This document shows positions 7,327 through 45,916 of a DNA stretch of 64,000 bases, one piece after another. The notes below the pieces were generated by a model. The model searched no databases. It was not told the origin of the DNA and saw only the letters and a list, made by a program, of their open reading frames with translations. The stretch is from an uncultured Treponema sp. (GTDB lineage: Bacteria > Spirochaetota > Spirochaetia > Treponematales > Treponemataceae). The first letter of the stretch is position 1; every line of letters starts with the position of its first letter. Both the position numbers and the translations under genes were made by a program. Where the stretch lies: NCBI RefSeq assembly GCF_946187725.1, contig NZ_CAMHSK010000011.1:1-64000 (forward strand). Direction: 5' to 3'.

Positions 7327-10300
7327 ATGAAATATCGATTGGGGCTCGATTTAGGTACAAATTCTATTGGTTGGGCTGTGTATTCTTTGGATAATCAGAA
7401 TACACCTTTGAATCTTGAAGATATGGGTGTCCGTATTTTTTCAGACGGGCGGGATCCAAAAACGAAAGAACCTCTGGCCGTTGCGCGAAGAATCGCCAGA
7501 GGGCAACGAAAAATAATCTATAGAAGAAAACTTCGTCGAAAAGCAACTTTCAGACTTTTACAAGAACAAGGCTTGTTCCCAAAAACAAAAGAAGAAACTC
7601 AAAAATTAAAGTCGTTAAATCCTTATGAGCTTCGTATCAAAGCATTAGATGAAAAACTAGAACCATCTGAACTTGCTCGTGTTCTATTTAATCTTTCTGT
7701 CCGTAGAGGCTTTAAAAGCAACCGAAAAGATACTGAGAATAACGAGCAAGAAACTTCAAATTCAAAAGAAAAACTATCTCAAAAGGATATGTGCACAGAA
7801 CTTGCAAATGCAATAAAGGACTCTGGCTGCCGAACTATCGGCGAATTCTTGTGGAAAAATCAGAATCAAAATCATGGTATAAGATTTGTTCCTGGAAGAA
7901 TGAAATACTATCCTCTTCGACAAATGTATATTGATGAATTCAATGCAATTCACTCAGTTCAAGAACAATTCTTCAAAAATATTAAGTGGGATGAAATCTA
8001 TAATGCAATTTTCTTTCAACGCCCATTAAAAGCACAAGAAAGAGGCCGTTGTCAATACATTCCAGAAAACGAAAGAACCTTCAAAGCTCTTCCTTGTGCT
8101 CAAAAACTTAGAATTCTGCAAGAAGTAAGAAATTTAAATTATCAGAATGCAGAAGGAAAAACTCTTCCGATTTCGAATGTGAGTAAACTTTCTCTTTTTT
8201 CCGAATCAGGCGAAGATACTCTCTTAAAACTCTTGGATACAAAAGAAAAAGTTACTTTTGATGCATTCCGAAAAGCACTGGGGCTTAGTCCTGCCTGTAC
8301 ATTTAATCTCGAACGAGGCGGAAGAACTTTCTTGCAGGGAAATACCACAGCTGTAAAAATGAGGAGCAAAAATCGATTTGGTTCTTTGTGGGATACACTT
8401 TCGCTTGAGGAACAGGATTTTATCGTTGAAAAATTGATAACGGCAGATGAGGATTCTGAAATTCTTGAGACTCTCGAAAAATACAGTCTTACAGATGAAC
8501 AAAAAGATTCCATATTAAAATTGCAACTTCAAACTGGTACTACGATGCTTTGTAAAGAAGTTTCCGAAAAACTTGTTCATAAAATGGAATCTGATAGCGC
8601 CGATACATACACGGTTGCTGTTGAATCTTTGGGATATAAATATGCTGACCAAACTGTGGAAAAGTGTGATGAATTGCCATATTACGGAAAAGTCCTTGTC
8701 GGCTCAACAATGGGCTCTGATCCGTCTGCTGATGAAAGCAAGCCTGAGAAAAAATATGGAAAAATCAGCAACCCCACTGTTCATGTATCTTTGAATCAGA
8801 CTCGGGTTGTCGTCAACGCTCTTATCAAACAGTACGGAAAGCCCGCTCAGATAGCCCTTGAACTTTCACGAGATTTAAAGGCAAGCCGGGAAGCAAAAGA
8901 GGCGATTCAGAAAAAGCAGAACGAAAACAAAAAGCGAAATGAAATCACAAATAAAAACATTCGTGATGCAAATCCAAATATTCCTTATCCCAACCGCAAC
9001 GACCGCTTAAAGTGGCGCTTGTGGGAAGAACTTGGAGCAGAAGGGCTTCCACGAAAATGTCTTTATTGCGGAAAGAATATATCCGGTGGGGAACTGTTCA
9101 GCAAGAACATTGAAATTGAGCATATTCTGCCATACAGCCGAACCTTGCTTGACGCAGAGTCGAATCTGACTGTGGCACATGCAAGCTGCAATGCCTTTAA
9201 AAAAGAGCGTTCTCCCTACGAAGCTTTTGGCACAAATCCCAAGGGCTTTAATTGGGAAGAAATTCTTATGCGGGCAAACCAACTGAAAAATCCTGCCAAG
9301 CGCAGGCGTTTTGCCGTAGATGCAATGGAGACTTTTGAAAAAGACAGCGGATTTATTGCCCGACAACTGACGGATAATGCCTATCTTTCAAAAATGGCAA
9401 TGAAATACCTGAAGTCTGTCTGCGACGATATCTGGTCGGTAAACGGCGGAATGACAAAATTGCTTCGTGACAAATGGGAAATTGATTCTATTTTAAAGCG
9501 TAAAATAGATGACAGGGAAATTGCCCATTTTGAATTAAAAGAAGAGCAAATCGGTGAATACAAAAAGAACCGCTATGACCACCGCCACCATGCTTTGGAT
9601 GCTTCTGTAATTGCCTTGATTGACCGTTCGCTTGTAAAGGAAATTTCTACGCTTAATGCTCGCTCACAAAACCACAGAATTGAAGTTCCGCCAATGGCTG
9701 TTCCTAGACTGGAATTGCAGGAAAAAGTGAAAAATATTGTTGTAAGCTTTAAGCCTGACCACGGTGCGGAAGGAAAACTTTCAAAAGAGACTTTGCTTGG
9801 CAAAATCAAGCGTGAAGAATTGCTGGAAATTTCAAAAATTGAGGAGGCGGACATTCCTCTTATAAAAAGTGATAAAGTCCGTAAGGATTTTGAGGAAAAA
9901 TTTGCAGAAACAAAGGACATCAAGCAAGTCCGAAAAGAATTTAAGGATGTCTATCCGCAGATAAAAGTTTTCAAAGAATATTTTGTTGTCCGTACAGCGG
10001 TAATGAGTTTGAAAGAAAACAACATTGAGGACATTGTTGATAATAAAATTCGAACGAAACTGCAAGAATTTATTGTGCTCCACAAGGGTGAAAAATTTGA
10101 AGATGTTTTGGAGCGATTCAGCGAACAGACTAGAATAAAAAAAGTCCGCTGTTTGAATCGTGACCAAAATCCAATTGTTATTAAAGGCTGTGTTCCCCGA
10201 TACTATGAAACTAAAGATTATTGTGCAGCTATAATTTGGAAAACCCCTCCCAAAAAAGAAGGGGCAAAACCGACTTTTGAAGCACAATATTTCCTTAGGA

Positions 10301-10668
10301 CGGAAATCGATAAAAACAACAAACCAAAAAAAGAAATAATAGAAGCATGGAAAAAGCAACACCATCCAGCTGCAAAACGTTTACCATTTCTTTTACACAA
10401 AGATGATTATTTGGAATTCTGCGATGGCGGGAAATGGTATAAGTGTAGAATAGCAGGATTGCAAGCTGCTGCGAATAGATTTGATATACGTCCAATTTTT
10501 TCGGTTACCGATTGTAAAGACTGGATAATTGCTACTGAAGAAAACCAACTGGAAGGATATTGGAAGCCGCAAAAAGGTCAGAATTACATCTCCGTCAATG
10601 TCCTCTTTGGCGAAAAAGAGGCAAGATTCATCACGGTAAATCCAATCGGCCGTGTATTCAGAAAATAA
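7327..10668 (+). CDS. cas9: Cas9, type II-C RNA-guided DNA nuclease
   Basis: A 1113-residue compact Cas9. RuvC-I is GLDLGTNSIGWAVY with Asp8. The arginine-rich bridge helix lies at about 51-78 (VARRIARGQRKIIYRRKLRR). RuvC-II is IALELSRDLK with Glu512. The HNH domain holds two cysteine pairs around CLYCG and IEHILPYSRTLLDAESN with His599. RuvC-III is DHRHHALDASVIAL with Asp758. The rest forms the wedge and PAM-interacting region. All catalytic residues seem intact. Size, and the presence of only cas1 and cas2 without csn2 or cas4, place it in subtype II-C. It is guided by crRNA:tracrRNA pairs. The PAM cannot be read from the sequence. Confidence 0.97.
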   Translation: MKYRLGLDLGTNSIGWAVYSLDNQNTPLNLEDMGVRIFSDGRDPKTKEPLAVARRIARGQRKIIYRRKLRRKATFRLLQEQGLFPKTKEETQKLKSLNPYELRIKALDEKLEPSELARVLFNLSVRRGFKSNRKDTENNEQETSNSKEKLSQKDMCTELANAIKDSGCRTIGEFLWKNQNQNHGIRFVPGRMKYYPLRQMYIDEFNAIHSVQEQFFKNIKWDEIYNAIFFQRPLKAQERGRCQYIPENERTFKALPCAQKLRILQEVRNLNYQNAEGKTLPISNVSKLSLFSESGEDTLLKLLDTKEKVTFDAFRKALGLSPACTFNLERGGRTFLQGNTTAVKMRSKNRFGSLWDTLSLEEQDFIVEKLITADEDSEILETLEKYSLTDEQKDSILKLQLQTGTTMLCKEVSEKLVHKMESDSADTYTVAVESLGYKYADQTVEKCDELPYYGKVLVGSTMGSDPSADESKPEKKYGKISNPTVHVSLNQTRVVVNALIKQYGKPAQIALELSRDLKASREAKEAIQKKQNENKKRNEITNKNIRDANPNIPYPNRNDRLKWRLWEELGAEGLPRKCLYCGKNISGGELFSKNIEIEHILPYSRTLLDAESNLTVAHASCNAFKKERSPYEAFGTNPKGFNWEEILMRANQLKNPAKRRRFAVDAMETFEKDSGFIARQLTDNAYLSKMAMKYLKSVCDDIWSVNGGMTKLLRDKWEIDSILKRKIDDREIAHFELKEEQIGEYKKNRYDHRHHALDASVIALIDRSLVKEISTLNARSQNHRIEVPPMAVPRLELQEKVKNIVVSFKPDHGAEGKLSKETLLGKIKREELLEISKIEEADIPLIKSDKVRKDFEEKFAETKDIKQVRKEFKDVYPQIKVFKEYFVVRTAVMSLKENNIEDIVDNKIRTKLQEFIVLHKGEKFEDVLERFSEQTRIKKVRCLNRDQNPIVIKGCVPRYYETKDYCAAIIWKTPPKKEGAKPTFEAQYFLRTEIDKNNKPKKEIIEAWKKQHHPAAKRLPFLLHKDDYLEFCDGGKWYKCRIAGLQAAANRFDIRPIFSVTDCKDWIIATEENQLEGYWKPQKGQNYISVNVLFGEKEARFITVNPIGRVFRK

Positions 10669-10675
10669 TGGCTAA

Positions 10676-10716
10676 CTCTGTTCAGTATGCCGATATTTAA
10701 AATATGCTGAACAGAG
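10676..10716 (+). other. Hairpin enclosing the cas1 start codon
   Basis: CTCTGTTCAGTAT (10676-10688) pairs with ATGCTGAACAGAG (10704-10716) across a 15-base loop with one wobble. The first ATG of the right arm is the cas1 start codon. With no ribosome site before cas1, this structure could restrict cas1 translation in the cas9-cas1 transcript. Confidence 0.6.
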
Positions 10717-11624
10717 TTTTAGAGATTTATGAAGAAAATCGATATCTGTCTCTCAGTCGTGGCTTTATCGTCATACAGCATGGTTCAGAAGAACTGGGGC
10801 GTGTTCCTCTTGACGATATAGGCGTACTCTTACTTTCAGCTCAAAGCGTAACATTCTCCAAAAACATATTAAATGCTCTTGCAGAGCGAGGCTGCGTTAC
10901 CGTCCTCTGTGGCAAAAACTATTCACCGCAAAGTATGGTTCTTCCTGTCTACTCACATTATCTTTTTGCAAAAATCCTGAAAAAACAGATTGATGCTTCT
11001 TTACCTCTTAAAAAAAGAATATGGCAGCAGATTGTTATCCAAAAAATTAAGAATCAGGCCTTGAATTTAAAACTTTGTGGCAAGGAAGAAGAATCAAAAC
11101 GGATTGAAACCATAGCGGCTCTGGTAAAGTCAGGAGACCCCGACAATCGTGAAGCATACGCGGCCAGAATGTACTGGAAATATTTGTTCGGAAAAGATTT
11201 TACAAGAGATAAAGAAAAGGAAGGAATAAATTCTTTTTTGAATTATGGCTATGCAATCATGCGCTCCTCTATGGCACGGGCAGTTTGTGCCAGCGGACTT
11301 CTTCCTTCCCTTGGTCTTCATCACGACAATCATCTTAATCAGTTTTGTCTTGCGGACGATTTATTTGAGATTTACCGTCCTTTAGTTGACTGTGTAGTAT
11401 TTCATCTTGGAATAAAAGATGATTCTGAGTTAACTCCCGAATATAAAACTAAACTTACAGAAACACTATGGATAAAGGTTCATACTTCGGAAGGCAATTC
11501 CCCTGCATTTCAGAGTATGCAATATCTGACGGCTTCTTATGTTCACGCATTGGAAGATGGAAAACCTGTCATTGATTTGCCTGTATGGGCAGGAGATGAA
11601 TATGGCAATGCCAGAACTGAATAG
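10704..11624 (+). CDS. cas1: Cas1, type II CRISPR integrase
   Basis: A 306-residue Cas1, the metal-dependent integrase that with Cas2 inserts new spacers. The catalytic triad is visible as Glu in NREAYAARMYW, His in LGLHHDNHLNQF and Asp in LADDLFEIYRPLVD. The N-terminal beta-domain begins MLNRVLEIYEENRYLSLSRG. It follows cas9 by 35 bases and overlaps cas2, so the three genes probably form one operon. The start codon sits within a hairpin stem and lacks a clear ribosome site. Confidence 0.96.
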   Translation: MLNRVLEIYEENRYLSLSRGFIVIQHGSEELGRVPLDDIGVLLLSAQSVTFSKNILNALAERGCVTVLCGKNYSPQSMVLPVYSHYLFAKILKKQIDASLPLKKRIWQQIVIQKIKNQALNLKLCGKEEESKRIETIAALVKSGDPDNREAYAARMYWKYLFGKDFTRDKEKEGINSFLNYGYAIMRSSMARAVCASGLLPSLGLHHDNHLNQFCLADDLFEIYRPLVDCVVFHLGIKDDSELTPEYKTKLTETLWIKVHTSEGNSPAFQSMQYLTASYVHALEDGKPVIDLPVWAGDEYGNARTE

Positions 11625-11937
11625 GTATGAGCTTATGTGGATGCTTGTTTTATTTGATTTACCTGTGGTTGAGAAGAAAGAGCGCAAAGCAGCAACAGAT
11701 TTCAGAAATTTTTTGCTCGATCACGGATTTGCAATGGTGCAATATTCAATTTATACTAAGCTTTTTTCCGGTAAGGATGCTTGTGAAAAATATTATCGCC
11801 TGATAAAGCAAAACTTGCCGGAAGAAGGTAAAGTTGATATTATCACGATAACGGATAAGCAATATGAAAACATTATCAGTTATTCATCCTGTAAAAAAAT
11901 CGAAAAAAAAGAGCCTCAACAACTGCTTTTATTCTAG
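11602..11937 (+). CDS. cas2: Cas2, CRISPR adaptation protein
   Basis: I chose ATG 11602 (111 residues) instead of the track's 11539 because AGGAG lies just before it and the N terminus then matches Cas2. The ferredoxin-like fold starts MLVLFDLPVVEKKERKAATD, with the conserved Asp in FDLP, followed by FRNFLLDHGFAMVQYSIY. It overlaps the end of cas1 by 23 bases, suggesting translational coupling. It forms the scaffold of the Cas1-Cas2 integration complex. The array begins 69 bases downstream, read from the other strand. Confidence 0.94.
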   Translation: MAMPELNRYELMWMLVLFDLPVVEKKERKAATDFRNFLLDHGFAMVQYSIYTKLFSGKDACEKYYRLIKQNLPEEGKVDIITITDKQYENIISYSSCKKIEKKEPQQLLLF

Positions 11938-11946
11938 TTTTCCCTC

Positions 11947-12007
11947 AAAAAAAATACGTCCGATGCACTCTATTTCTTTATATAAAATAGAATTACATCG
12001 GATGTAT
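11947..12007 (-). terminator. Strong minus-strand terminator at the cas2-side end of the CRISPR array
   Basis: Arms at 11954-11975 and 11985-12007 pair over about 22 positions with a few mismatches and a nine-base loop. On the minus strand the hairpin is followed by eight T (A-run 11947-11954). No T-run follows on the plus strand. One arm overlaps the first two bases of repeat 1. It should end pre-crRNA transcription before it runs into the cas genes. Confidence 0.75.
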
Positions 12008-13602
12008 TATAACTGATTAATTTGTCCGGTCAACCTGCAACATATTCATACCGCAAGCGTTACACATTTCAATTATAACTGATTAATTTGTCCGGTCAAC
12101 CTGCAACCTTTTCAGCCTGCTGGATAACGGCATTCGAATTATAACTGATTAATTTGTCCGGTCAACCTGCAACGCTTTTGAGCCTCAAAGGCTTATTCCT
12201 TTGATTATAACTGATTAATTTGTCCGGTCAACCTGCAACGCCTTTGTTTTAGTATGGCTTGCTGTAATAATTATAACTGATTAATTTGTCCGGTCAACCT
12301 GCAACGACTGGAGTCATAATATTGAAGTAGATTTTTATTATAACTGATTAATTTGTCCGGTCAACCTGCAACATACAGATTCTCTTTATACAATATTTGT
12401 GAATTATAACTGATTAATTTGTCCGGTCAACCTGCAACCACTTTTAATTGTCCAAATCGTAACAATGAATTATAACTGATTAATTTGTCCGGTCAACCTG
12501 CAACCTTGCGAGCGTTGCTTCAAGAATCGGAAGCATTATAACTGATTAATTTGTCCGGTCAACCTGCAACAAAGGCTACTACAAGGGGGTTGTAGACGCT
12601 ATTATAACTGATTAATTTGTCCGGTCAACCTGCAACCCGCCGTGGCCGTTGGGCGTTCCGAATTAAATTATAACTGATTAATTTGTCCGGTCAACCTGCA
12701 ACTTTTTTGACTATTGGTTACTAGATGAACGGATTATAACTGATTAATTTGTCCGGTCAACCTGCAACAATGGTAACGACCTTTGTCGGGCTTTTGCTAT
12801 TATAACTGATTAATTTGTCCGGTCAACCTGCAACGTAGGAATCGGCACTAACTCACTGTTGATTATTATAACTGATTAATTTGTCCGGTCAACCTGCAAC
12901 ATCTATTTGGGAGATGAGAACGGCACCGTAATTATAACTGATTAATTTGTCCGGTCAACCTGCAACAATTTTTTTTATCGGGTATAACAAAGACTGATTA
13001 TAACTGATTAATTTGTCCGGTCAACCTGCAACCGGGAATGTAATATTATTGTCCAACATTGTATTATAACTGATTAATTTGTCCGGTCAACCTGCAACGG
13101 CAAACATCACACAGAATACACATTATTTATTATAACTGATTAATTTGTCCGGTCAACCTGCAACCTTCACGTTGATGAGGGGGAACGGCTTTGAATTATA
13201 ACTGATTAATTTGTCCGGTCAACCTGCAACATTTCTGGTTCTGATGTCTCAAAGCGTATTATTATAACTGATTAATTTGTCCGGTCAACCTGCAACATAG
13301 CGGTCGGTGGTCAGTGGGCAAAAAGAATTATAACTGATTAATTTGTCCGGTCAACCTGCAACGATTTGTCAACTCTTGAAGCAGATGCGGCAATTATAAC
13401 TGATTAATTTGTCCGGTCAACCTGCAACAAAGTTGCAACGTTTACTCCAAATATGATTATTATAACTGATTAATTTGTCCGGTCAACCTGCAACTCGCCG
13501 CGGTCGTTGGGCCTTTCGCATAAATTATAACTGATTAATTTGTCCGGTCAACCTGCAACGGAATCAAGGTAAAGACGGCACTGCTTGGCATTATAACTGT
13601 TT
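12006..13602 (-). CRISPR. Type II-C CRISPR array, 24 intact repeats plus one degenerate, 24 spacers
   Basis: Twenty-four identical 36-base repeats start at 12006 and end at 13559. A 25th at 13590 keeps only the first ten bases (ATTATAACTG on plus). Spacers are 30 bases, except one of 31 (12306-12336) and one of 29 (13495-13523). In crRNA sense (minus strand) the repeat begins GTTGCAGGTTGACCGG and ends CAGTTATAAT, matching the tracrRNA anti-repeat. Within each repeat TTGACC and TATAAT are 16 bases apart, a near-consensus promoter firing into the next spacer. The degenerate repeat lies at the end away from cas2, so integration probably occurs at the cas2 side. Confidence 0.98.
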
Positions 13603-15161: not shown

Positions 15162-15220
15162 ACCTATTGATTAAATAGGTTAAATCCTTTACGATATATT
15201 TACCTACTACAACAATAGGT
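15162..15220 (+). promoter_or_regulatory. Promoter of the nitrogenase-like operon with two Rrf2-type operators
   Basis: TTGATT (15167-15172), 17 bases, TACGAT (15190-15195). Two exact ACCTA-N9-TAGGT dyads are present, at 15162-15180 (over the -35 box) and 15202-15220 (at or after the start of transcription), 40 bases apart. This is the best match in the window to the motif. Confidence 0.78.
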
Positions 15221-15236: not shown

Positions 15237-15677
15237 ATGAAATATAAAGTTGCGGTCGCTACAAGCGATGGAAAAACAGTTGACTCTCACTTCGGTCATG
15301 CACAGAGCTTTTTAATTTATGAAGTTGATGAAGAAAGCGGTGCATTCGAAGACATTGAAGAGCGTGATGTTACGTCTGCCTGCTCAGGCGGTGAATGTGG
15401 CGGAAAACCGGCTGAATCGGCGGAGGCAGAAACTGCGGGCTGCGGCGGTCACAACGGAGCAGGAACAGGCTCATCTCCTATGGACGAAATTGCGAAAGCC
15501 CTGAGCGATGTGGATTATGTTCTCGTCGCAAGAATCGGGCCACACGCAATCCGTGCACTGGCGAAATACAATGTAACCGCCTACGACATCGTTCTCCCGA
15601 TAGACGAGGCAATTGCAAAAATCAATGATTTCAGAAGAAAAATAAAAGAAAGAAAACAAAATTATAAAACTAACTAG
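15237..15677 (+). CDS. NifX-like / dinitrogenase iron-molybdenum cofactor biosynthesis protein
   Basis: A 146-residue member of the NifX/NafY/NifB-C-terminal family that binds and carries iron-sulfur cofactor precursors. It begins MKYKVAVATSDGKTVDSHFG, with the family's histidine in SHFGHA. The C-terminal half has YVLVARIGPHAIRALAKYN. Between them lies a Cys/Gly/His-rich insert (CSGGECGGK, AGCGGHNG) that could ligate metal. It is the first gene of the operon with the K- and D-like subunits and probably works with the NifB-like protein at 5166, which lacks this domain. Confidence 0.83.
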   Translation: MKYKVAVATSDGKTVDSHFGHAQSFLIYEVDEESGAFEDIEERDVTSACSGGECGGKPAESAEAETAGCGGHNGAGTGSSPMDEIAKALSDVDYVLVARIGPHAIRALAKYNVTAYDIVLPIDEAIAKINDFRRKIKERKQNYKTN

Positions 15678-15741
15678 ACGCGGATGAACGCTGATAAACG
15701 CTGATAAAAAAATCCGCGTCCATCTGTGTGTATCTGCGTCA
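15674..15741. repeat. Intergenic dispersed-repeat-like palindrome
   Basis: GACGCGGAT (15677-15685) and ATCCGCGTC (15712-15720) flank tandem GATAAACGCT units, followed by CATCTGTGTGTATCTGCGTC. This style of ACGCGGATNAACGCTGAT sequence is a common intergenic repeat in several bacterial genomes; a related element lies at 52695. Confidence 0.55.
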
Positions 15742-15758
15742 AATAAGAGGTATTGAGT

Positions 15759-17087
15759 ATGGCGAAAATTCTTGATCAGCCGCGTTACAAGTGTGCGCTG
15801 GCTGCTATGCAGACTGTTCAGTCGATTCCGGGGGCAATTCCGGTTCTTCATTCGGGACCGGGATGTGCTTCAAAACTGAACGACAACAACGGAACCAGCG
15901 GACGATACAGCCCGAACATCTTCCCTTGTACTTCGATTTCGGAGAAGGAAGTTGTATTCGGTGGTGCTGAAAAATTGCGCTCAACGATTCACAATGCGCT
16001 GCGTGTCATTGACGCTGACTTGTTCGTGGTGCTTTCTGGATGTACGGGTGAGATTATCGGAGACGACATCAAGGAAGTTGCTCAGGAATTTGAGGACGAA
16101 GAAAAGCCTGTAATCTGGGCAAAGACTCCTGGCTTCAAGGGTAACAACTACGTCGGCCATGACTGGATTTTGAAGTCAATCTTCGAGCAGTACCTTAACC
16201 GTCCGGAAATCCGCGATGAGCGTGAAGAAGCCGGCGGAACAATAAAAGGTCTGGTCAACATTTTCGCAGGCCCGCCTCAGCAGGATCCTTACTGGCTCGG
16301 AAACTTGCGTGAAATTGAGAGCCTGATTTCTGCAATCGGACTCAAGCCGAACACAATCTTTGGCTTTGGCCGTGGAATCGAGAATATCAAGAATGCAGCA
16401 CGCGCACAGTTCACAATTTTGATTTCGCCGTGGGTTGGTTTGGAAAGCGCAAAATATCTTGAGACAAAATTCAAGGTTCCGCTTTTGCATTATCCAATCC
16501 TGCCGATTGGAGCGAGCGAGACAACGAAATTCCTTCGGGCTGTGCAGGAGTTCACCGGAGCGGACAAAGATCTGGTTGAAAAGGTAATCACCGAAAAAGA
16601 AGCTGAATTCTACTATTATATCGAGCGATTTGCGGATACTTTGCTTGAAACCCGAATCCTGGGCAAGCGTTTTACGGTTGCAAGCGACAGCCAGTACACC
16701 ATGGCAGTCACAAAATTCCTTGTAAACGACATGGGCTTATTCCCGGAGAAAGTCTTTATCACTGACGATGCGCCGGAAGCTTTCCGCACACAGATTGCCA
16801 ATGAGATTTCAAACCTCAACTACGGAATTCAGGCAGAAGTTCAGTTTACGACAGACGGACACGACATTCACGAGCAGATTAAAAAGACTGACTTTGCGGG
16901 CACTCCGCTGATTATCGGTTCCAACTGGGAGAAAAAGCTTGCCGCTGAAATCGGTGCGCATTATGTGAACGTAAGCTATCCGATGCTTGAAAAGCTCGTA
17001 ATCAACGACCACATCGCAGGCTACTCAGGCGGACTTCATCTGCTTGAGCAGATCTTCTCAGCTGCAATGAGCAAATTGAAACTTTAG
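15759..17087 (+). CDS. Nitrogenase-like component 1, K-type subunit
   Basis: The start is ATG 15759 after AAGAGG (442 residues); the track used an upstream TTG. It belongs to the NifD/K/E/N superfamily. All three P-cluster-type cysteines are present: Cys12 (RYKC), Cys36 (SGPGC) and Cys95 (LSGCTGEIIGDD). The later TPGFKGNNYVGHD motif is typical of NifK/NifN. It is shorter than true NifK (about 520) and lacks its N-terminal extension. With the D-like partner it should form the catalytic component that takes electrons from a NifH-like Fe protein, which is not in the window. The reaction is unknown; context points to sulfur compounds rather than N2. Confidence 0.82.
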   Translation: MAKILDQPRYKCALAAMQTVQSIPGAIPVLHSGPGCASKLNDNNGTSGRYSPNIFPCTSISEKEVVFGGAEKLRSTIHNALRVIDADLFVVLSGCTGEIIGDDIKEVAQEFEDEEKPVIWAKTPGFKGNNYVGHDWILKSIFEQYLNRPEIRDEREEAGGTIKGLVNIFAGPPQQDPYWLGNLREIESLISAIGLKPNTIFGFGRGIENIKNAARAQFTILISPWVGLESAKYLETKFKVPLLHYPILPIGASETTKFLRAVQEFTGADKDLVEKVITEKEAEFYYYIERFADTLLETRILGKRFTVASDSQYTMAVTKFLVNDMGLFPEKVFITDDAPEAFRTQIANEISNLNYGIQAEVQFTTDGHDIHEQIKKTDFAGTPLIIGSNWEKKLAAEIGAHYVNVSYPMLEKLVINDHIAGYSGGLHLLEQIFSAAMSKLKL

Positions 17088-17096
17088 GAGATAACC

Positions 17097-18569
17097 ATGC
17101 CATATAACTTTAAAAACGCAAATCTCGCCGTTCGTGAAAACCGACTCGGCTCAATTACAGGTTTTGTGGGCAACCTTGAAACGCTCGTCTACCGCTCAGA
17201 ATGCGGCTCACTCAAAAACCGCGAGCGATGCTTCTCACAGTCAAGCTCATGTCTTTCGGGCTGTGCCTTGAACGCCCTTGCCGCAATCAGAAACGTGGCC
17301 GTTGTTTACCACGCACCGGCAGGCTGTACCGCAATGGCCTCAAACGACAACGTAAAATTCGGCCAGATTGCAGCCAGAATCAACAAAACCACAAATTCGG
17401 TCTTTGTCTGCACGGACTTGAACGAAAAGGACACGGTTTTCGGTGCGATGAACGACCTTCGAAAAATCGTCGAGCACACTTACAACACATACAAGCCGGA
17501 CGCAATTTTCATCTCGACTTCATGCGTTTCTGGCGTTATCGGTGAGGACGTTGACGGCTTGGCCGACGAAATCAACGAGGAACTTCCGATTCCTGTGATT
17601 CCGGTTCACTGCGAAGGCTTTAAGAGCCGAATCTGGGCAAGTGGTTTTGATATTTCCGACCACGCCGTTTTGCAGGGAATCGTAAAACCGCCGAAAGAAA
17701 AACGTAGAATCATCAACATCAAGAACTTCTACGAGAGCGCACGCCCTCAGATTACAAAGATTTTCAACGAAGTTTTTGACGCTGAGCCGCAGTTTCTTTA
17801 CTGTAACTCGACAATCGAAGAGCTTAGTCATTTGAGCGAGGCTCTGGCAACGGTCTGTATCTGCGGTACTCTGGGAACTTATCTTGGAAACGCTTTGGAA
17901 GAAACTTACGGCGTTCCTTACGTGCGGACAATCAACCATTCTGGAGTCACAGGCTTTGAAACATGGCTCCGTGGAATCGGGGATGCGATTGGCCGCCGCG
18001 AGCAGGTTGAAGCCTACATCAAAAAACAGCGCGAAATTTACATTCCGCAGATTGAAGAAGCAATCAAGCCGCTTCGTGGTCTTCGGGCTGTAATCGGAAT
18101 GGGACCAGGCTTTACTTACGAGATTGCCCGCGTTTTGCAGGAATTCGGCATGACAATCGATTACGCCCTTGCATGGCACTATGATTACAAGTACGACAAC
18201 GGCCAAGTTCCGCCGGCACTGGAGCATCTGCTCAAAAACAGCCCTAAGGACATGAAGGTTGCCGTCGCCGACCAGCAGAACTACGAGGTTTTGAACATCC
18301 TCAACCGCTACAAGCCTGACGTGTACTTTAGCCGACACCCGGGAACTACTGTCTGGGCAATCAAGCAGGGCTATGCCGCAGTCTTCGTTGCCGACGAGTA
18401 CACTGTCTTTGGTTACGAAGGAACTTTGAGCTTTGCAAAACTGATTCGCGACACCGTTACAAACCGCTCGTTCGAGAAAAACCTTGCCGCCCGAATCAAG
18501 CTTCCATACACAAAATGGTGGTACGAGCAGAGCAACGAAAAGTTCATCAACGCGGAGAGCAAGAGGTAG
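17097..18569 (+). CDS. Nitrogenase-like component 1, D-type subunit
   Basis: A 490-residue NifD/E-type protein nine bases after the K-like gene with a GGAG site. P-cluster-type cysteines are Cys56 (LSGCALNAL), Cys77 (APAGC) and Cys143 (STSCVSGVIGED), and IPVHCEGFKSR follows. Cys256 (ICGTLGTYLGNALEETYGVP) aligns with the cofactor-binding Cys275 of NifD. In the region of the cofactor-binding His442, my alignment by eye shows no His (VADEYTVFGYEG), so cofactor ligation differs from MoFe nitrogenase. It probably binds a NifB-derived cluster. The sequence suits a nitrogenase-like reductase acting on another substrate; C-S reduction is my inference from the neighbours. Confidence 0.82.
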   Translation: MPYNFKNANLAVRENRLGSITGFVGNLETLVYRSECGSLKNRERCFSQSSSCLSGCALNALAAIRNVAVVYHAPAGCTAMASNDNVKFGQIAARINKTTNSVFVCTDLNEKDTVFGAMNDLRKIVEHTYNTYKPDAIFISTSCVSGVIGEDVDGLADEINEELPIPVIPVHCEGFKSRIWASGFDISDHAVLQGIVKPPKEKRRIINIKNFYESARPQITKIFNEVFDAEPQFLYCNSTIEELSHLSEALATVCICGTLGTYLGNALEETYGVPYVRTINHSGVTGFETWLRGIGDAIGRREQVEAYIKKQREIYIPQIEEAIKPLRGLRAVIGMGPGFTYEIARVLQEFGMTIDYALAWHYDYKYDNGQVPPALEHLLKNSPKDMKVAVADQQNYEVLNILNRYKPDVYFSRHPGTTVWAIKQGYAAVFVADEYTVFGYEGTLSFAKLIRDTVTNRSFEKNLAARIKLPYTKWWYEQSNEKFINAESKR

Positions 18570-18734: not shown

Positions 18735-21686
18735 CTATTTTGCTAATTTTTCGTAAAGCTTAAATAATTCTCCGACTATTTCCGATTCTGTGATGTCAGG
18801 GGGAAATCCGTAGGCCGCTATTACAGCCTTGTCGTTGGCTTGGTGGGCTTTTCGCAATTCTTGGGGCATGAAAGTCTCATCGTATAAATCTGCGAGCGTA
18901 CTGTCGGGGAAGTTTGCGCGGGTATCCAAAATTGCCTGTGCGGTTTGTTCGATTTTTGCTTTCTGCTCGGCTGTTGGATTGCACCAAACAAAATTGTTGT
19001 AGACAATATCATTTGAGTAACGATAATCGCTTTTCAATCTTCCGCAAACTACACGCATCCATGCGTTATGAATAGAACTTGTAAGTATACCAAATTCATA
19101 TAAACTTGCATTTGGAACAATTTGTACAGCATCACTTGCAATTATATCGGATGAAACATACCCTATTGGAATATAACTACGTTTTTCTGACGAGACTCGA
19201 GGAATCAAGAGATAATTTCCACTTTCGGGCTGACGGTTCTCGGTAAACAGATATGGATATGCGGCCCAATTCTGAGTTGATTCTTTGGAACTTGAAAGCC
19301 GCATTTCTTTTACAGCGGCTACTCTTTGTGCTACAAGTGACATTTTGCGTAATTCGGCAGGACTTGCATTTACGAGCCATAGGCAATATCGTTTTTTCCC
19401 ATTTATGAATTCTTCTGCTCCTAAAAACTCTCGGATAAATTTTTTTGCAGCAGGTTCCTTTTTTATGAATTCGTCGTATTCTTCCGCTTCAATTATAAGA
19501 TTGCCACCATCTGTAGGCTGGCTTCCTTTGTTAATTTTAGAAACTTTGCAAAGCGGATTCTTTCTTTTTTCAACAAAAACATTCGGTGCATCAATTAAGT
19601 AAGGAGAGATATTACTTGCTATAGTCTTATTTCCATTCTCATCGAAGATAATTTTTTCCTTTTGATTGCTGTTTTTGTCACTGAATCCAAGAATTACACA
19701 ATGAACATGAGCTTTTTGAGAGCTTTCAGAATCCCAAACAAATGTTTTATATGCAAAATCAAATTGAATATTGTTTTCCTCAAAAAGTGGCTTCCATACT
19801 TCTGCGACTTGCTCACCTTGAATAATCGAGTTTGTAGAAACAAAAGCGCATTTTGTCTGACTTCCATGAATAAGTCTGCTTGCTTTAATATACCACCCGA
19901 CAACATAATCGATATTTTTCCCAATGTTTTTTACAACAAGTGCCAAGTCTTTCTTTTGCTGTTCAGATTGGAATGCATATCCAACAAAAGGGGGATTCCC
20001 GATGATGTAATCATAAACAATAGGCTTTGAAATTGATTTTGTATGGTCTATTTTGAACTCGACTTCTTTTGCAACTACATTAAGTTCTTTAAAATACTTC
20101 TGTGATAAGGCAGATTCTTCAATTTCTGAATCATGGATTTCAATCGTTGCCCCAGATAAATCTTTGTAAATGTTGAGCTTTTCGGCATAAAGAGCGTTAA
20201 GTTTCTGATTCTGCGAAAGTGTCGCCCAGTCAAGCTGCAGTGCGTTTCCTTCAATGATATTAGCACCTGTTTTGAGTGGTAGAAAATCAATTGTCTGACT
20301 CAAAATTGCCTCGGTTTCTGCAACCATCTGGCTTTCCGCAATCCACAAGGCGGTTTTTGCGACTGTTACGGCAAAATCGTTTATTTCAATTCCATAGAAC
20401 TGGTTGATGTGAACTTTGATAAATTCATCGAATCCTAATTTTTTGTGGCCTTCGTTAAGGATTGAAAGAACTTTGTTTTCAAGCCGTCGGAGCGAAAGAT
20501 ATGTTTCTGTCAAAAAGTTTCCGGAGCCACATGCTGGGTCAAGAAATTTGAGTGAGCCGAGTTTTTCTTGAAAATCATAAAGTTTATCGATTTTTTGCTT
20601 GGCCGCTTTTGTCGCGCAAATCTGTTCAAACTCAGAATTTAACTCGTCCATAAAGAGCGGGTCGATTACCTTGTGAATGTTCTGAATCGAAGTGTAGTGC
20701 ATTCCGCCCTTTCGGCGTGTGTCTGGATTCAATGTACTTTCAAAAACTGCACCAAAAATTGTTGGGGAAATCTCTGACCAGTTGAACGGAGCGCAGTGAT
20801 TTACGATAACATCGACAATCTCTTGTGTGAAATTTGGAATTTCAATCTTTTCATCTCGGAATAATCCGCCGTTCACATAGGGGAAAGGCTTTAGTTTGAG
20901 GTCGTATTTGTCTCGGTCTGAAAGTTTTGTATCGAGACTCTTGAAAAGCTTGATGATTCCGTCACGCAGATTTTCAATGGCAAATGATTTTATATAATCT
21001 TCAAAAGAACTTTTGGTTTCAAAAAGCCCCGCATCTTCGGCATAAAGGCAAAAAACGATTCTGACGCAGAGAATGTTGAGTGAACGAAGACTGTTTTCTT
21101 CTGGTTCAATGTACTCTTTGTATAAAGCATCGTAAAGTTTTCCTACAAGTTCTCCAGCTTTTAAAGAAATTTCTTCTTCACGACGGATATTCTCGTTTTT
21201 TGTGTCCGAAAGAAATTGCAGACGATAAAAATCTTTTTCCAAGTCTTTCAAGAAAATCTGCTCTGGCTCGCCGCTTGGATTTTCCATGTCATACACAAGA
21301 AATTCATCAAAATTGCAAGTAACAATCCACTTTGGATGCTGGCTCAAAGGCAAGTCTGCAACATATTTTTTTGCCTGTTGGTATGGAGTGAGAAAAGATC
21401 CATCGCTCTGCTTGATAGGTTCACGCAAGTCCTTGTGGCTTGACTTTTGCTCAATCATAACTCGGGTGGAAGGAATATAGGCATCGATAAAATTCGTGAT
21501 TGTTTTGTTCTGAATCTTGTCTTTTACCTGCTCTTCAAAGAAGATGAAATTCGCAATGTCTGCCACACCGAACACGCAAGTCAGAAGGTCAATCCAAAAT
21601 TTCTGGGATTCGCCTTTTTCGTAGCCGTGTCCAAGCCAGTTTTCCGCGAACTTTTTAGCATTCTTTGTTTGTTCTGCCCTTGTCAT
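18735..21686 (-). CDS. MmeI-like type II restriction-modification enzyme (nuclease plus N6-adenine methylase)
   Basis: A 983-residue single-chain enzyme. The N-terminal nuclease has a PD-(D/E)xK pattern (Asp68, then IEQKSSH with Glu79 and Lys81). A helical spacer follows. The methylase domain contains motif I LDPACGSGNFL (about 384) and motif IV NPPFVGY (about 564), typical of N6-adenine methylation. The C-terminal part should hold the target-recognition region. MmeI-type enzymes modify one strand and cut about 20 bases away. No separate specificity or restriction gene is nearby, as expected. TATAAT lies six bases before ATG with no ribosome site, so it may be leaderless. Recognition sequence unknown. 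Confidence 0.88.
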   Translation of the reverse strand: MTRAEQTKNAKKFAENWLGHGYEKGESQKFWIDLLTCVFGVADIANFIFFEEQVKDKIQNKTITNFIDAYIPSTRVMIEQKSSHKDLREPIKQSDGSFLTPYQQAKKYVADLPLSQHPKWIVTCNFDEFLVYDMENPSGEPEQIFLKDLEKDFYRLQFLSDTKNENIRREEEISLKAGELVGKLYDALYKEYIEPEENSLRSLNILCVRIVFCLYAEDAGLFETKSSFEDYIKSFAIENLRDGIIKLFKSLDTKLSDRDKYDLKLKPFPYVNGGLFRDEKIEIPNFTQEIVDVIVNHCAPFNWSEISPTIFGAVFESTLNPDTRRKGGMHYTSIQNIHKVIDPLFMDELNSEFEQICATKAAKQKIDKLYDFQEKLGSLKFLDPACGSGNFLTETYLSLRRLENKVLSILNEGHKKLGFDEFIKVHINQFYGIEINDFAVTVAKTALWIAESQMVAETEAILSQTIDFLPLKTGANIIEGNALQLDWATLSQNQKLNALYAEKLNIYKDLSGATIEIHDSEIEESALSQKYFKELNVVAKEVEFKIDHTKSISKPIVYDYIIGNPPFVGYAFQSEQQKKDLALVVKNIGKNIDYVVGWYIKASRLIHGSQTKCAFVSTNSIIQGEQVAEVWKPLFEENNIQFDFAYKTFVWDSESSQKAHVHCVILGFSDKNSNQKEKIIFDENGNKTIASNISPYLIDAPNVFVEKRKNPLCKVSKINKGSQPTDGGNLIIEAEEYDEFIKKEPAAKKFIREFLGAEEFINGKKRYCLWLVNASPAELRKMSLVAQRVAAVKEMRLSSSKESTQNWAAYPYLFTENRQPESGNYLLIPRVSSEKRSYIPIGYVSSDIIASDAVQIVPNASLYEFGILTSSIHNAWMRVVCGRLKSDYRYSNDIVYNNFVWCNPTAEQKAKIEQTAQAILDTRANFPDSTLADLYDETFMPQELRKAHQANDKAVIAAYGFPPDITESEIVGELFKLYEKLAK

Positions 21687-21743: not shown

Positions 21744-21798
21744 ATCTATTGACTTAGTAGGTAATAATCGCTATTATATACCTACCTTACAACTAGGT
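21744..21798 (+). promoter_or_regulatory. Promoter of the ABC-transporter/cysteine operon with two Rrf2-type operators
   Basis: TTGACT (21749-21754), 17 bases, TATTAT (21772-21777). Operator 1 (21744-21762) reads ATCTA-N9-TAGGT over the -35 box. Operator 2 (21780-21798) reads ACCTA-N9-TAGGT exactly. Spacing is 36 bases, identical to nifB and the LanC promoter. Confidence 0.78.
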
Positions 21799-21814: not shown

Positions 21815-22774
21815 ATGCTTAATTTAAAAAATGTTCTATATCGTGCTTTACCTGTACTTGGCGTGCTTTTTGCACTTTTGGTGCAGAGTGTTTTTCCTGA
21901 TAGTCCGCTTCACCCGGCTTCAACGAAACATTATTACAACTTTCTTCTATATATATTGCTTTCGGTCACGGTTGTGTTGTTTGCGCTTTCTTTTTTCATC
22001 AAAAGGATTCATGACTCGCTTTCTGAAAAGGGAGCTTTTTTCGCTGGAAGCGGCATTCTGATTGCGATTTTGAATCTTGTGACCGCAAAATTGGCCTTGC
22101 TTCCGGTGATTTTCTTTCCGAGCTATGACAACATTCTGGCGGTATTCGTAGAACAAACTTCCCTGCTTTTGAAGTGCATTGGCTTTTCGTTCAGACTTTT
22201 GATTCTGGGCGTAATTTGGGGCGTAATTACAGGATTTATCACGGGCGTTTTTCTTGGCTTTTCAAAAAAGGTCTACTACTGGATTAATCCGTACATAAAG
22301 CTGATTGGTCCGATTCCTGCTACGGCATGGATTCCGCTCGTGCTGACCACTTTTCCGACGCCACTTGGGGCAAGCATTTTCATCATCGCGCTTGCGGTTT
22401 GGTTCCCGGTTCAGCTGATGACAAGCTCCGGAATACAGAATACAAGCAAGGTTTATTTTGAAGTGAGCAAGACGCTTGGAGCGGGAACCTTTTATCAGGT
22501 GTTCAAAGTCGCAGTTCCGGCCGCCCTTCCGAACATCTTTCAGGGCGTTTTCAACGGAATCTGTGCGGCATTCATCGCGCTCATGACGGCAGAAATGTTC
22601 GGTGCAAAATACGGAATCGGCTGGTACATAAGCTATCAGAAAGCGATGATGCTCTATTCAGGTGTCTACGCCGGTCTGATTATGATTGCGGTCTTCTGTA
22701 CAGTAATCATCACCGCCCTATTCAAAGTGCGAACCCGCCTATTAAGCTGGCAGAAAGGACTTATCAAATGGTAA
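21815..22774 (+). CDS. ABC transporter permease, NitT/TauT (sulfonate/taurine) type
   Basis: A 319-residue membrane protein with about eight hydrophobic segments, longer than TauC/SsuC (about 260) because of extra N-terminal helices. The permease signature region reads SKTLGAGTFYQVFKVAVPAA, matching the EAA loop that contacts the ATPase. AGAGG precedes the ATG. It is first in an operon with the binding protein (26 bases downstream) and probably works with the ATPase at 27003. The substrate is likely a sulfur-containing organic acid such as a sulfonate, judged from the regulon and cysteine genes. Confidence 0.85.
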   Translation: MLNLKNVLYRALPVLGVLFALLVQSVFPDSPLHPASTKHYYNFLLYILLSVTVVLFALSFFIKRIHDSLSEKGAFFAGSGILIAILNLVTAKLALLPVIFFPSYDNILAVFVEQTSLLLKCIGFSFRLLILGVIWGVITGFITGVFLGFSKKVYYWINPYIKLIGPIPATAWIPLVLTTFPTPLGASIFIIALAVWFPVQLMTSSGIQNTSKVYFEVSKTLGAGTFYQVFKVAVPAALPNIFQGVFNGICAAFIALMTAEMFGAKYGIGWYISYQKAMMLYSGVYAGLIMIAVFCTVIITALFKVRTRLLSWQKGLIKW

Positions 22775-22799: not shown

Positions 22800-23882
22800 A
22801 TGAAAAAAGTTTTTACAGCAATTGTCTTTGCAGCTATCGTATTTACTGGCTGTGAAAAGAAATCGTCGTCTCAGAAGGTCGTACGAATCAACTTCCAAAC
22901 AGGCACTCTCTGTGCGGCTCCTGTTCATGTCGCAATGAAAATGGGGCTTTTTGATGAGGAACTTGCCGCAATCGGGCAGAAAGCGGAATATGTTCAGGTC
23001 GTTGAAGGCGGAGCAACTCTTGCAGAAATGATTGCTTCGGGCAAAGTCGATGCAGGATATGGCTTGTATGCGACCCAGCTTCAGGCAATGGAAAACGGTC
23101 TTCCAATCTCCTACACTTCGGGAATTCATGTCGGCTGTACGAAATATTATGTCCGTGCAGACTCAAACATTTATTCTGCAAAAGACTTGCGCGGAAAGAA
23201 AATCGGTGTTCCAGGCCTTGCTGATTCGAGCGTCATGAACCTCAAACGAAAACTCATGGATGAAGGAATCGGAGTTACTGCTGATAACAACGAAGTCGAA
23301 TTTCTGGCTTATGCTTCATCTGACCTTGCAATCGCTTTGAATAACGGTGCGGTTGATGTAATCGGTGCGCACGATCCAGTCGCAACAAAAGGCGAACGAG
23401 CTTACAAATTCCGAAAAATTCTTGATACGGGAATTGATGAAAAATTCGTAAACGAGTATTGCTGCCAGCAGTTCGTAACGCACAAACTCTTAAAGGAAAA
23501 TCCCGAAGGAGCAGCCGCTGTAACACGGGCTTTGCAGAAAGCAAGTGCCTTTGTCGAAGCAGAACCAAGAATTGCGGCACAGCTTCAGATTGAAAACAAT
23601 CTCGTTGCTGGAGACCTGGATTTCAATGCAGAACTTCTCGACGAGCTAAACTTCATCCCAAGCCGCTCATTGGGCAAAAAGACCTTTGATTCTGCGGCGC
23701 GACAGCTTCAGGAAGCAGGAATCCTTAAAAAGACAACGGACATCGAAAAGTTTATTGCACAAGGATATATCGAGCTTTTTGGAGTTCCAGACGGCTATTC
23801 GTATGATTCAGCAACACAAACTTATAAAGAGATCAACGGAACAAGAACTAGTTTCAATTTAAAAAAATATCGGAGAAAATAA
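22800..23882 (+). CDS. ABC transporter substrate-binding lipoprotein, SsuA/NMT1 type
   Basis: A 360-residue lipoprotein with signal MKKVFTAIVFAAIVFTGC. The binding domain is of the SsuA/TauA/ThiY type: TGTLCAAPVHVAMKMGLFDE, VVEGGATLAEMIASGKVDAG and KDLRGKKIGVPG. It captures ligand outside the membrane and passes it to the permease at 21815. An unusual cysteine pair (EYCCQQF) is present. Ligand probably a sulfonate, organosulfur compound or related anion. GGAGG lies just before the ATG. Confidence 0.86.
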   Translation: MKKVFTAIVFAAIVFTGCEKKSSSQKVVRINFQTGTLCAAPVHVAMKMGLFDEELAAIGQKAEYVQVVEGGATLAEMIASGKVDAGYGLYATQLQAMENGLPISYTSGIHVGCTKYYVRADSNIYSAKDLRGKKIGVPGLADSSVMNLKRKLMDEGIGVTADNNEVEFLAYASSDLAIALNNGAVDVIGAHDPVATKGERAYKFRKILDTGIDEKFVNEYCCQQFVTHKLLKENPEGAAAVTRALQKASAFVEAEPRIAAQLQIENNLVAGDLDFNAELLDELNFIPSRSLGKKTFDSAARQLQEAGILKKTTDIEKFIAQGYIELFGVPDGYSYDSATQTYKEINGTRTSFNLKKYRRK

Positions 23883-23883: not shown

Positions 23884-24087
23884 ATGAAAAAGCTAAATCT
23901 TATTCTGGCATCAGTAAGTGCACTTTTTGGACTGCTCGTAGCACTGGCCCCATACACCTTCGCAAAGGTCTGTTCAATGCCAAAAATGCACTGCCACGCA
24001 GTAACCGCACCGACTGAATTTGTCCTTGGAATCTTGATTTTCGCATTTTCTGCCTTTCAGGCGGCACTTCTATGGAAAAAACGCTGA
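23884..24087 (+). CDS. DUF4418-like small membrane protein
   Basis: A 67-residue protein with two membrane helices flanking a Cys/Met/His segment (KVCSMPKMHCHAVT). It resembles the DUF4418 family, which has a conserved MxCH-type motif. It starts one base after the binding protein stop and overlaps the FtsX-like gene by 16 bases, so it is translated with them. The Cys/Met/His segment could bind a metal, but function is unknown. Confidence 0.68.
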   Translation: MKKLNLILASVSALFGLLVALAPYTFAKVCSMPKMHCHAVTAPTEFVLGILIFAFSAFQAALLWKKR

Positions 24088-25286
24088 TTGAAAAACTGCC
24101 GGAAGGATTTTCTCTGGCGCTTTCAAATCTTTCAAAGAAGATTTACAGAACAGTTTCGCTTATCTTCCTTGCAGCTATTTCTTCTGCTGTTCTGTTCGCT
24201 TCGCTGATTCTCTCTTCAAGCCTGAAATCTGGAATCACAGGCCTTCGTTCCCGACTGGGCGCAGACCTGCTGGTAGTTCCAGAAGGCTATGAACAGGGAG
24301 CAGAGAATGTTCTTCTTACTGGTGAACCAAATTATTTCTACATGGACAAATCCGTTCTGGAATCAATTCGGGGCCTTGAGGGAATTGAAAATGCCACTGC
24401 TCAGTTTTACCTTACAAGCCTTGCTGAATCCTGCTGCGACTTTCCTATACAGATAATCGGATTCGACAGAAAAAGCGATTTTATCGTTCAGAATTGGGCA
24501 CGCACGAAACTGGGCGAAAACAGCTCAACTGAAGACTTTCTTCTTTCGGGCAGCAATGTAAGCCTGACACACGGAAAAGTCAAATTTTTCGGTGAAGAGC
24601 ACACAATTTCCGGAAGACTTTCAAAAAGCGGAACAGGAATGGACAATACAATCTTTTGTGATTTGGAAAGCCTTCAAAAAATTTTCGAAAGCGCAAAATC
24701 AAAAGGCTTCGGCTTCATTTCTGACGGCGATACAAAGAATAAAATCAGCACGGTTTTAATCAAAGTATCAGACGGCTCTTCAACAGATTCCGTCGCGCTC
24801 AGAATAAAAAATGCTGTGAAAGGAATACAGGTACTTACCGGCGAGAAATTCCTTAAATCTTTTTCGGAAAGGATTTCATCATTTCTCGTATTCTTTTATT
24901 CAATTTCGGCCCTGGTTCTCTTAATCAGCATTTTTTCACTCGGAATTGTATTTTCGTTAACAATCAATGAGCGGCAGCGTGAATTTTCAATTCTTCGTGT
25001 GCTCGGAGCAAACAGAAGACAGCTCAGGCAAATTCTTTTAGCAGAAGCGGCTTTTTTGGGCGGAAGCGGAGCTGTCACAGGAATTGCATTATCAGCACTG
25101 ATTGTGATTCCATTCAACGCCATCATAGCAGAAAAAATCTCACTTCCTTTTGCGATGAGCAGTGCAGGCGAGATTCTGATTTTTGCCCTTCTCACCTTCG
25201 CCTTATGTACAGCTTCAAGCGTTTTTGCCGCATTAAACGGCGCATTCAGAATCTCAAAAATTGAACCTTATGGAGGAATAAAATGA
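24072..25286 (+). CDS. FtsX/MacB-type ABC transporter permease
   Basis: A 404-residue protein with an N-terminal membrane segment (VSLIFLAAISSAVLFASLIL), a large extracytoplasmic domain (about 60-260) and three C-terminal helices with the FtsX signature NERQREFSILRVLGANRRQL. Such permeases move lipoproteins, peptides or signals outward, or act as mechanotransmitters. It overlaps both neighbours and forms a unit with the DUF4418-like protein and the ATPase at 25283. Its presence inside a sulfur operon is unusual and its cargo is unknown. Confidence 0.82.
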   Translation: MEKTLIEKLPEGFSLALSNLSKKIYRTVSLIFLAAISSAVLFASLILSSSLKSGITGLRSRLGADLLVVPEGYEQGAENVLLTGEPNYFYMDKSVLESIRGLEGIENATAQFYLTSLAESCCDFPIQIIGFDRKSDFIVQNWARTKLGENSSTEDFLLSGSNVSLTHGKVKFFGEEHTISGRLSKSGTGMDNTIFCDLESLQKIFESAKSKGFGFISDGDTKNKISTVLIKVSDGSSTDSVALRIKNAVKGIQVLTGEKFLKSFSERISSFLVFFYSISALVLLISIFSLGIVFSLTINERQREFSILRVLGANRRQLRQILLAEAAFLGGSGAVTGIALSALIVIPFNAIIAEKISLPFAMSSAGEILIFALLTFALCTASSVFAALNGAFRISKIEPYGGIK

Positions 25287-27767: not shown

Positions 27768-27809
27768 CAAGTCGGTTTTTAAAGACTTAAAAATAAAATG
27801 GAAGAGAAT

Positions 27810-28303: not shown

Positions 28304-28358
28304 TCCTATTGACATAGTAGGTAATTAAATGTATATTAAACCTACCAGTTAACTAGGT
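28304..28358 (+). promoter_or_regulatory. Promoter of the LanC-like/cysK operon with two Rrf2-type operators
   Basis: TTGACA (28309-28314), 17 bases, TATATT (28332-28337). Operator 1 (28304-28322) is TCCTA-N9-TAGGT over the -35 box. Operator 2 (28340-28358) is ACCTA-N9-TAGGT exactly. Spacing is 36 bases. A GGAG ribosome site follows. Confidence 0.78.
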
Positions 28359-45846: not shown

Positions 45847-45916
45847 CAGAATATTACTTCTCTTGTATACTTTTTTTAAAATCATGCTATAATGGAATAA
45901 CTTTTTGGAGCAAAAC

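Follow-up and report, generated by a model that had tools for sequence, protein, structure and literature searches.

A nitrogenase-like NifX-K-D operon of a Treponema sp., a candidate assimilatory C-S-cleaving reductase under a shared palindromic operator

The DNA analysed here (the window) consists of the first 64,000 nucleotides of contig NZ_CAMHSK010000011.1 (contig C11) of an uncultured Treponema sp. (assembly GCF_946187725.1; 3.27 Mb, 80 contigs, 98% complete). Positions 15237-18569 carry one operon, nifX-K-D, encoding a NifX-like protein and two nitrogenase-like subunits, K1 and D1. Judged from sequence, NifX-K1-D1 is likely, with a probability of about three in four, to form the catalytic part of a nitrogenase-like reductase that serves sulfur assimilation, depends on ATP, cleaves carbon-sulfur (C-S) bonds and works with a shared NifH and NifB under a sulfur operator. 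The homology, the ligand residues, the Fe protein gene elsewhere in the genome, the common operator and the co-occurrence of these genes are read directly from the sequences. The methylthio-alkane reductase (Mar) system MarBHDK and the isethionate reductase (Isr) system IsrBHDK have already been published; the D1 branch, its Nif-type Fe protein, the operator and the pairing with importers are new.

The NifX-like, K-like and D-like open reading frames (ORFs) picked out in an earlier note, made from the sequence alone, were recovered by domain searches. All three lie on the forward strand: the NifX/NafY-like cluster-binding protein with a Cys/Gly-rich insert (15237-15677; PF02579, 4.7e-19), K1 (15759-17087; 442 amino acids from the ATG at 15759, ORF start at TTG 15753; PF00148, 2e-74) and D1 (17097-18569; 490 amino acids; PF00148, 5e-65). 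In a PDB search, the best solved relative of D1 was Rhodospirillum rubrum MarD (6e-86; next match 1e-29, a lead of about 55 orders of magnitude over every nitrogenase) and that of K1 was MarK (9d9u_C, 9e-103; next match 1e-25). The AlphaFold model of D1 (predicted local distance difference test score, pLDDT, 83.2; predicted template modelling score, pTM, 0.86) was superimposed on MarD 9fmg_A with template modelling (TM) scores of 0.87/0.91, against about 0.7 for nitrogenases. The closest named relative found was Treponema saccharophilum, where a protein encoded on plasmid pTS2 of strain JCM 32279 is 98.4% identical to D1; no relevant paper on T. saccharophilum and nifH was found in the literature. 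Between the two D sequences, nonsynonymous divergence (dN) is 0.019 and synonymous divergence (dS) is 1.36, and both K1 and D1 are under strong purifying selection. Because dS is this high despite the identity of D, the window belongs to a species other than T. saccharophilum.

In the MarDK structure, the P-cluster is held by MarK Cys32/56/121 and MarD Cys66/91/158, and the [Fe8S9C] cluster by MarD Cys270 and His429; the Arg428-His429 loop is absent in nitrogenases and was proposed as a possible hallmark of Mar (PMC12552129). When aligned to MarDK, all six P-cluster cysteines are kept, as K1 Cys12/36/95 and D1 Cys52/77/143. The earlier note had named the same K1 residues (counted from the ATG) and D1 Cys77 and Cys143, but had taken Cys56 of D1 for the remaining ligand; Cys56 is an extra cysteine, four residues past Cys52. 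It had rightly placed a Cys at the NifD Cys275 position of D1 (Cys256, the equivalent of MarD Cys270) and found no His at the NifD His442 position. The alignment explains that absence, because the ligand position is taken by His414 on the Mar-specific Arg-His loop (Arg413-His414, the equivalent of MarD Arg428-His429). Cys256 and Arg413-His414 are invariant in an alignment of 33 sequences, and MarD Trp195, Phe199 and His375 are retained in D1, which has Trp180, Phe184 and His361.

The window encodes no NifH, as had been remarked of the locus, and a search of the whole genome gave one strong NifH, on contig C46 (9420-10271) under the same operator. It exceeds the NCBI nifH cut-off (TIGR01287, 454.9 bits against 394.35), and among solved structures it matches Clostridium NifH best (1cp2, 2e-130; MarH, 8e-88). 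In a NifH tree it is placed in the Nif-type half, where the NifHs that accompany D1 in other genomes are also found, except in one genome (G264, locus L188) that has a MarH-type NifH. The nifB gene (5166-6038, forward strand) encodes a NifB-like radical S-adenosylmethionine (SAM) cluster-forming protein of 290 amino acids without a NifX domain (TIGR01290, 6e-82), in which all six NifB motifs are present (HPC, CX3CX2C, ExRP, AGPG, TxTxN and CxxCRxDAxG).

Co-occurrence was assessed in 145 Treponemataceae genomes. NifH and NifB were both present in 26/26 genomes with D1 (D1+ genomes), and NifH accompanied a D of any type in 30/32 genomes, compared with 2/104 genomes without such a D or true nif (Fisher 2e-25, a value that overstates independence because the genomes are related). 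Two genomes (G031 and G069) encode NifH and NifB with no D match over the limit used, through either missing contigs or loss of D/K. The genes also run together: one relative (L052) has the single run cysK-nifB-nifH-nifX-K-D-ssuC-ssuA, and Clostridia at 60% identity have metB-malY-cysK-nifB-nifX-nifH-cysK-D-K. Related genomes have nifB, nifH, nifX, K and D side by side; in the window a type II CRISPR (clustered regularly interspaced short palindromic repeats) system (7327-13600; Cas9 at 7327-10668, Cas1, Cas2 and an array at about 11990-13600) lies between nifB and nifX-K-D. An MmeI-type restriction-modification gene on the opposite strand (18735-21686) separates D1 from the importer operon, which in L052 stands directly 3' of D1.

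The operator is a 19-bp palindrome, ACCTA-N9-TAGGT, with 10 copies genome-wide (4 for the reversed-pattern control). All ten precede genes of the nitrogenase-like system or of sulfur metabolism: nifB (one site), nifX-K-D (two), ssuC (one), LanC-cysK-metB-malY (one), nifH (two), a second importer-D-K operon on contig C31 (one), metY on contig C4 (one) and a divergent gene pair on C46 (one). When one mismatch was allowed, the window held 8 matches against 0.41 expected, a count reached in 0/100 shuffles. D1+ genomes (15 counted) had a mean of 9.8 sites and genomes without D1 (also 15) a mean of 1.4, with no significant difference between the two groups for the reversed pattern. The copy before nifB (ACCTATCAAGGTACTAGGT, 5125-5143) is an exact match, and the sharing of the operator by nifB, noted earlier, is thus real. 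The two copies before nifX-K-D, at 15162-15180 (with a TTGATT -35-like hexamer inside) and 15202-15220, lie 40 bp apart, and pairs spaced by 40-41 bp recur at nifH and in relatives. The sites before the importer operon (21780-21798) and the LanC-cysK-metB-malY operon (28340-28358) each have an upstream companion with one mismatch, at 21744-21762 (overlapping a TTGACT -35, 17 nt before TATTAT) and at 28304-28322 (TTGACA inside). Read directly, the upstream copies at nifH, at ssuC and at 28304 hold TTGAC[A/T], followed 17 nt on by a -10-like hexamer, so a repressor bound there would cover the promoter; a consensus promoter scan gave no more matches than shuffles.

A candidate for this repressor is the Rrf2-family, CymR-like protein encoded at 27798-28235 (forward strand; PF02082, 6e-26), which cysK genes flank. 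Its best PDB match is CymR (2y75, 4e-20); it scores 104 bits against the CymR model NF047409, below the cut-off of 195. It is not an IscR-type cluster sensor, because it has only one Cys. In Bacillus subtilis, CymR acts with CysK. From family and gene order, the Rrf2 protein probably binds ACCTA-N9-TAGGT as a repressor. The arrangement resembles the CymR cysteine regulon of Firmicutes, in which a single palindrome likewise serves CysK, cystathionine enzymes and importers of the cystine type and the regulator is of the Rrf2/CymR kind; the regulator here differs in its sub-equivalog score, and the likeness is one of regulator family and of the genes controlled.

The sulfur neighbourhood described in the earlier note (a C-S lyase, cysteine synthases and a sulfonate-type importer) was borne out by the following genes downstream of D1, all on the forward strand. 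The importer operon starts with an SsuC/TauC-like permease (21815-22774; NCBIfam SaoP, 6e-28, and TauC, 6e-22, all below cut-offs) and an SsuA/NMT1-like substrate-binding lipoprotein (22800-23882; TIGR01728, 2e-22; PF09084, 2e-17). A LolC/FtsX-like permease that recurs near D1 in relatives (24072-25286), a LolD-like ATP-binding cassette (ABC) ATPase (25283-25939) and a CysK-like cysteine synthase family protein (25976-26968; TIGR01136, 1e-83) follow, and then an ABC ATPase (27003-27767) that clusters with ATPases accompanying SsuC/SsuA and is the probable SsuB of the importer. Beyond the Rrf2 gene, a LanC-like gene (28373-29803; PF05147, 2.5e-30), with two operator copies in its promoter region, heads an operon of a second cysK-like gene (29828-30808; PF00291, 2e-64), a MetB/MetC-type pyridoxal phosphate enzyme of Cys/Met metabolism (30898-32073; PF01053, 2e-146; NCBIfam cystathionine gamma-lyase/synthase families) and a PatB/MalY C-S beta-lyase (32108-33274; TIGR04350, 476.8 bits, cut-off 340). 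CysK is the commonest and most constant neighbour of D1 in relatives. On contig C4, the gene under the operator is metY, for O-acetylhomoserine sulfhydrylase. The divergent C46 site (L011:7022-9406) has on one side the ABC ATPase gene of an importer that is putatively MetNI-type and on the other a run of M20 amidohydrolase, radical SAM and RidA genes, which suggests that amino acids with S-substituents or N-acyl groups are also used as sulfur sources. Elsewhere in the window, positions 45905-46906 encode a zinc-ribbon protein that also has a domain of the formylglycine-generating-enzyme-like (sulfatase-modifying factor) type, and an Rfam scan of positions 1-40000 returned no riboswitch or other RNA.

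Only four proteins of the genome match PF00148, namely D1, K1 and a second pair, D2 and K2, and none of them passes the NifE/N cut-off. The D2K2 pair (contig C31, L014:8190-10964) lies in an operon with a polar-amino-acid importer, preceded by an operator, and the binding protein of this importer is most like YtmK (3e-46). D2 keeps the P-cluster and Fe1 cysteines, and the Arg-His ligand loop is absent from it. Up to three D types were found in relatives and up to four D matches in sampled Clostridia. The D/K pairs mostly adjoin an ABC importer, and in most such genomes NifB and a NifH of this type occur once each. The sharing of one NifH-like protein by several D/K pairs was suggested earlier for Heliophilum fasciatum (PMC9147875). 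From sequence, the best reading of the family would be one of assimilatory C-S-cleaving [Fe8S9C] reductases with interchangeable catalytic pairs. A fuller proposal, which we put forward tentatively and would not yet bet on, is that of a modular machine, in which D/K pairs with different pockets and their own importers plug into one Nif-type NifH, one NifB and a single sulfur switch, and in which D1K1 catalyses a reaction new to the superfamily, a reductive release of sulfide and not of methanethiol or sulfite.

The relation to Mar was examined in trees of D, built without IsrD and Endomicrobium NfaD sequences and, likewise, without comparison to Pillotina corrugata sequences. By sequence and fold D1 is closest to Mar and far from NifDK; the trees placed it in a clade of its own, with members from Treponema, from a further Spirochaetota family and from Clostridia (7/391 genomes, 60-62% identity). 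In the careful tree the D1 clade had support of 99/98 and the Mar clade 100/97. Orthology with MarDK was rejected by the approximately unbiased (AU) topology test forcing D1 and Mar together (p-AU 5e-33). At the pocket positions MarD 73/74/194, nearly all Mar-clade rows have Cys-Gln-His (one aberrant row, Ser-Leu-His), the window D1 has Asn-Ala-Ile, at its residues 59, 60 and 179, and Clostridia D1 have mostly Gly/Ala/Ser-Gln-Ile, while D3 and other D branches have combinations of their own. A second D/K paralogue in Alphaproteobacteria (L101, L107, L109 and L069) forms its own clade near Mar, with a Thr-Asn-His pocket and Trp for Phe199. D1 is thus assigned, on its sequence, to a separate Treponema/Clostridia clade with a predicted substrate pocket different from that of Mar.

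Among the alternatives, a strict methylthio-alkane reductase, which would reduce 2-methylthioethanol, dimethyl sulfide or similar compounds and pass methanethiol to MetY, fares best and is nevertheless improbable. The closest solved structures are those of Mar and the cluster ligands are all of the Mar type, an operator precedes metY, and the R. rubrum system (PDB 9fmg, 9d9u; PMC12552129) has the same fold, the same P-cluster and [Fe8S9C] ligands including the Arg-His loop, a NifB partner and a sulfur context. Set against this are the position of D1 outside the Mar clade, the Asn-Ala-Ile pocket in place of Cys-Gln-His, a Nif-type Fe protein unlike the MarH of MarBHDK, a neighbourhood centred on CysK and not on MetY, and several D/K pairs per Fe protein. 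The suggestion of the earlier note, a similar or new Mar-like C-S reductase, is supported by the MarDK homology and fold, the Arg-His loop, the sulfur operator linking NifH, NifB, both pairs, importers, CysK, MetB, MetY and PatB, and the CymR-like Rrf2 protein; its separate clade and own pocket speak against the name methylthio-alkane reductase.

A sulfonate reductase like Isr, supplied by the SsuABC-type importer and releasing sulfite from D1K1, is less probable still. Such a role would agree with the SsuA/SsuC-like importer, which is in the regulon and stands beside D1 in several lineages, and IsrBHDK of Rhodobacter capsulatus likewise combines nitrogenase-like H, D and K with a radical SAM protein and an Ssu-type importer (SsuCAB) for organic sulfur (PMC11423573). 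By its description, however, Isr is without most P-cluster and all ligands of the iron-molybdenum-cofactor type: IsrD keeps a single one of the three P-cluster cysteines and has no counterpart of Cys275, and IsrB, which has nothing in common with NifB beyond the SAM motif, is a different protein (PMC11423573). D1 has all four cysteines and the NifB here all motifs. No match to the sulfite/nitrite reductase domain PF01077, which would be needed to use sulfite, was found in this genome and 16 related spirochaete genomes. Identity with Isr was rejected on the ligands and on this absent domain; sulfide or a thiol is a likelier product than sulfite, because CysK is the most constant neighbour of D1 and the domain is missing from these 17 genomes.

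Nitrogen fixation by D1K1 is very unlikely. The literature contains a claim of N2 fixation by a group IV enzyme in Endomicrobium proavitum and a suggestion of it in H. fasciatum (PMC9147875, PMC11257099), and the genome here has a NifB and a canonical NifH that passes the NCBI cut-off. Against this, the two non-Nif D/K pairs are the only ones in a 98% complete genome, which therefore has no NifEN; the NifD/K (or Vnf/Anf) equivalog models, whose cut-offs exceed 400, give 142 and 124 bits, and NifD/K/E/N scores in general lie far below cut-offs; the operators sit on sulfur genes; and no N2 was reduced by MarDK, which has this ligand loop too (PMC12552129). An N2-fixing nitrogenase was rejected because of the clade, the ligands, the lack of NifEN and the operators on sulfur genes. 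H. fasciatum has several group IV pairs (NflDK1-5) and one adjacent NifH-like gene inferred to serve more than one of them (PMC9147875); its sampled pairs belong to the same wider clade with the Arg-His loop, but to other subclades and with a MarH-type Fe protein. Heliophilum NflDK and Endomicrobium NfaDK are read in the literature as partly N2-fixing, NfaD being likened here by description. The Heliophilum D/K beside its NifH (L134:7992-14000), probably the pair proposed as dinitrogenase in PMC9147875, has a Mar-type Arg-His loop, SsuAC-like importer genes and CysK neighbours, a context that fits sulfur better than nitrogen.

It is just as doubtful that one D/K pair serves as a NifEN-like scaffold maturing the cluster of the other: D2 is without the Arg-His loop, as might be expected of a scaffold that holds its cluster loosely, but D2K2 belongs to an importer operon of its own that is preceded by an operator, and a single pair was found in some D1+ genomes (G088, G095 and G123), so that D1 does not need D2, neither pair is the scaffold of the other, and this role for D2K2 was disfavoured.

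For the C-S-cleaving reductase that we favour, we infer the clusters, the C-S cleavage, its product, the sharing of NifH by both pairs, and the repressor with its signal as follows. NifB would build a carbide-containing Fe8 cluster, which the NifX-like protein probably carries. D1K1 would hold a P-cluster through the six conserved cysteines, and an [Fe8S9C] cluster with D1 Cys256 and, on the Mar-type loop, His414 as its ligands. ATP-coupled electron transfer would be driven by the one Nif-type NifH, whose gene is on a different contig, and the SsuABC-type importer would supply a small organosulfur substrate. Its C-S bond would be cut and the reduced sulfur, most likely sulfide and possibly a thiol, would pass to CysK, MetY and MetB. 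D2K2 would use the same NifH and NifB, and the CymR-like Rrf2 protein probably occludes the promoters at the palindrome when sulfur is plentiful.

Several points weigh against this reading. D1 lies outside the Mar clade and has Ile for MarD His194, so C-S chemistry is carried over to it by homology. The class of substrate is not readable from the binding protein, because this is distantly SsuA-like and has no informative solved relative (a PDB search gave a weak THI5 match only). The CysK neighbour fits sulfide, but thiols or methanethiol would agree equally with the presence of metY and metB among the operator-controlled genes. Regulator and operator are linked by synteny and family alone, and the operator was not found in the Clostridia loci nor in genome G127.

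The ligand residues, phylogeny, operator and co-occurrence mark out, among the [Fe8S9C]-type reductases, a branch that occurs in gut-type Treponema and in Clostridia. One of its carriers, T. saccharophilum JCM 32279 (plasmid pTS2), is a named strain that has been sequenced. The comparison also provides the pocket positions that differ between D branches. In another spirochaete, Pillotina corrugata, a 2026 paper describes group IV nif homologues with a cysteine synthase and suggests sulfur metabolism; by that description nifB, nifH and an nifDK operon with cysteine synthase are likewise dispersed (PMC13067680). If the reading is true, bacteria of gut and rumen use nitrogenase chemistry to obtain sulfur from organic compounds. 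Surveys of nifH would miscount such bacteria as diazotrophs, because nifH accompanies the D1-type reductase in 26 Treponemataceae genomes: a canonical nifH, even one above the NCBI cut-off, does not equal nitrogen fixation.

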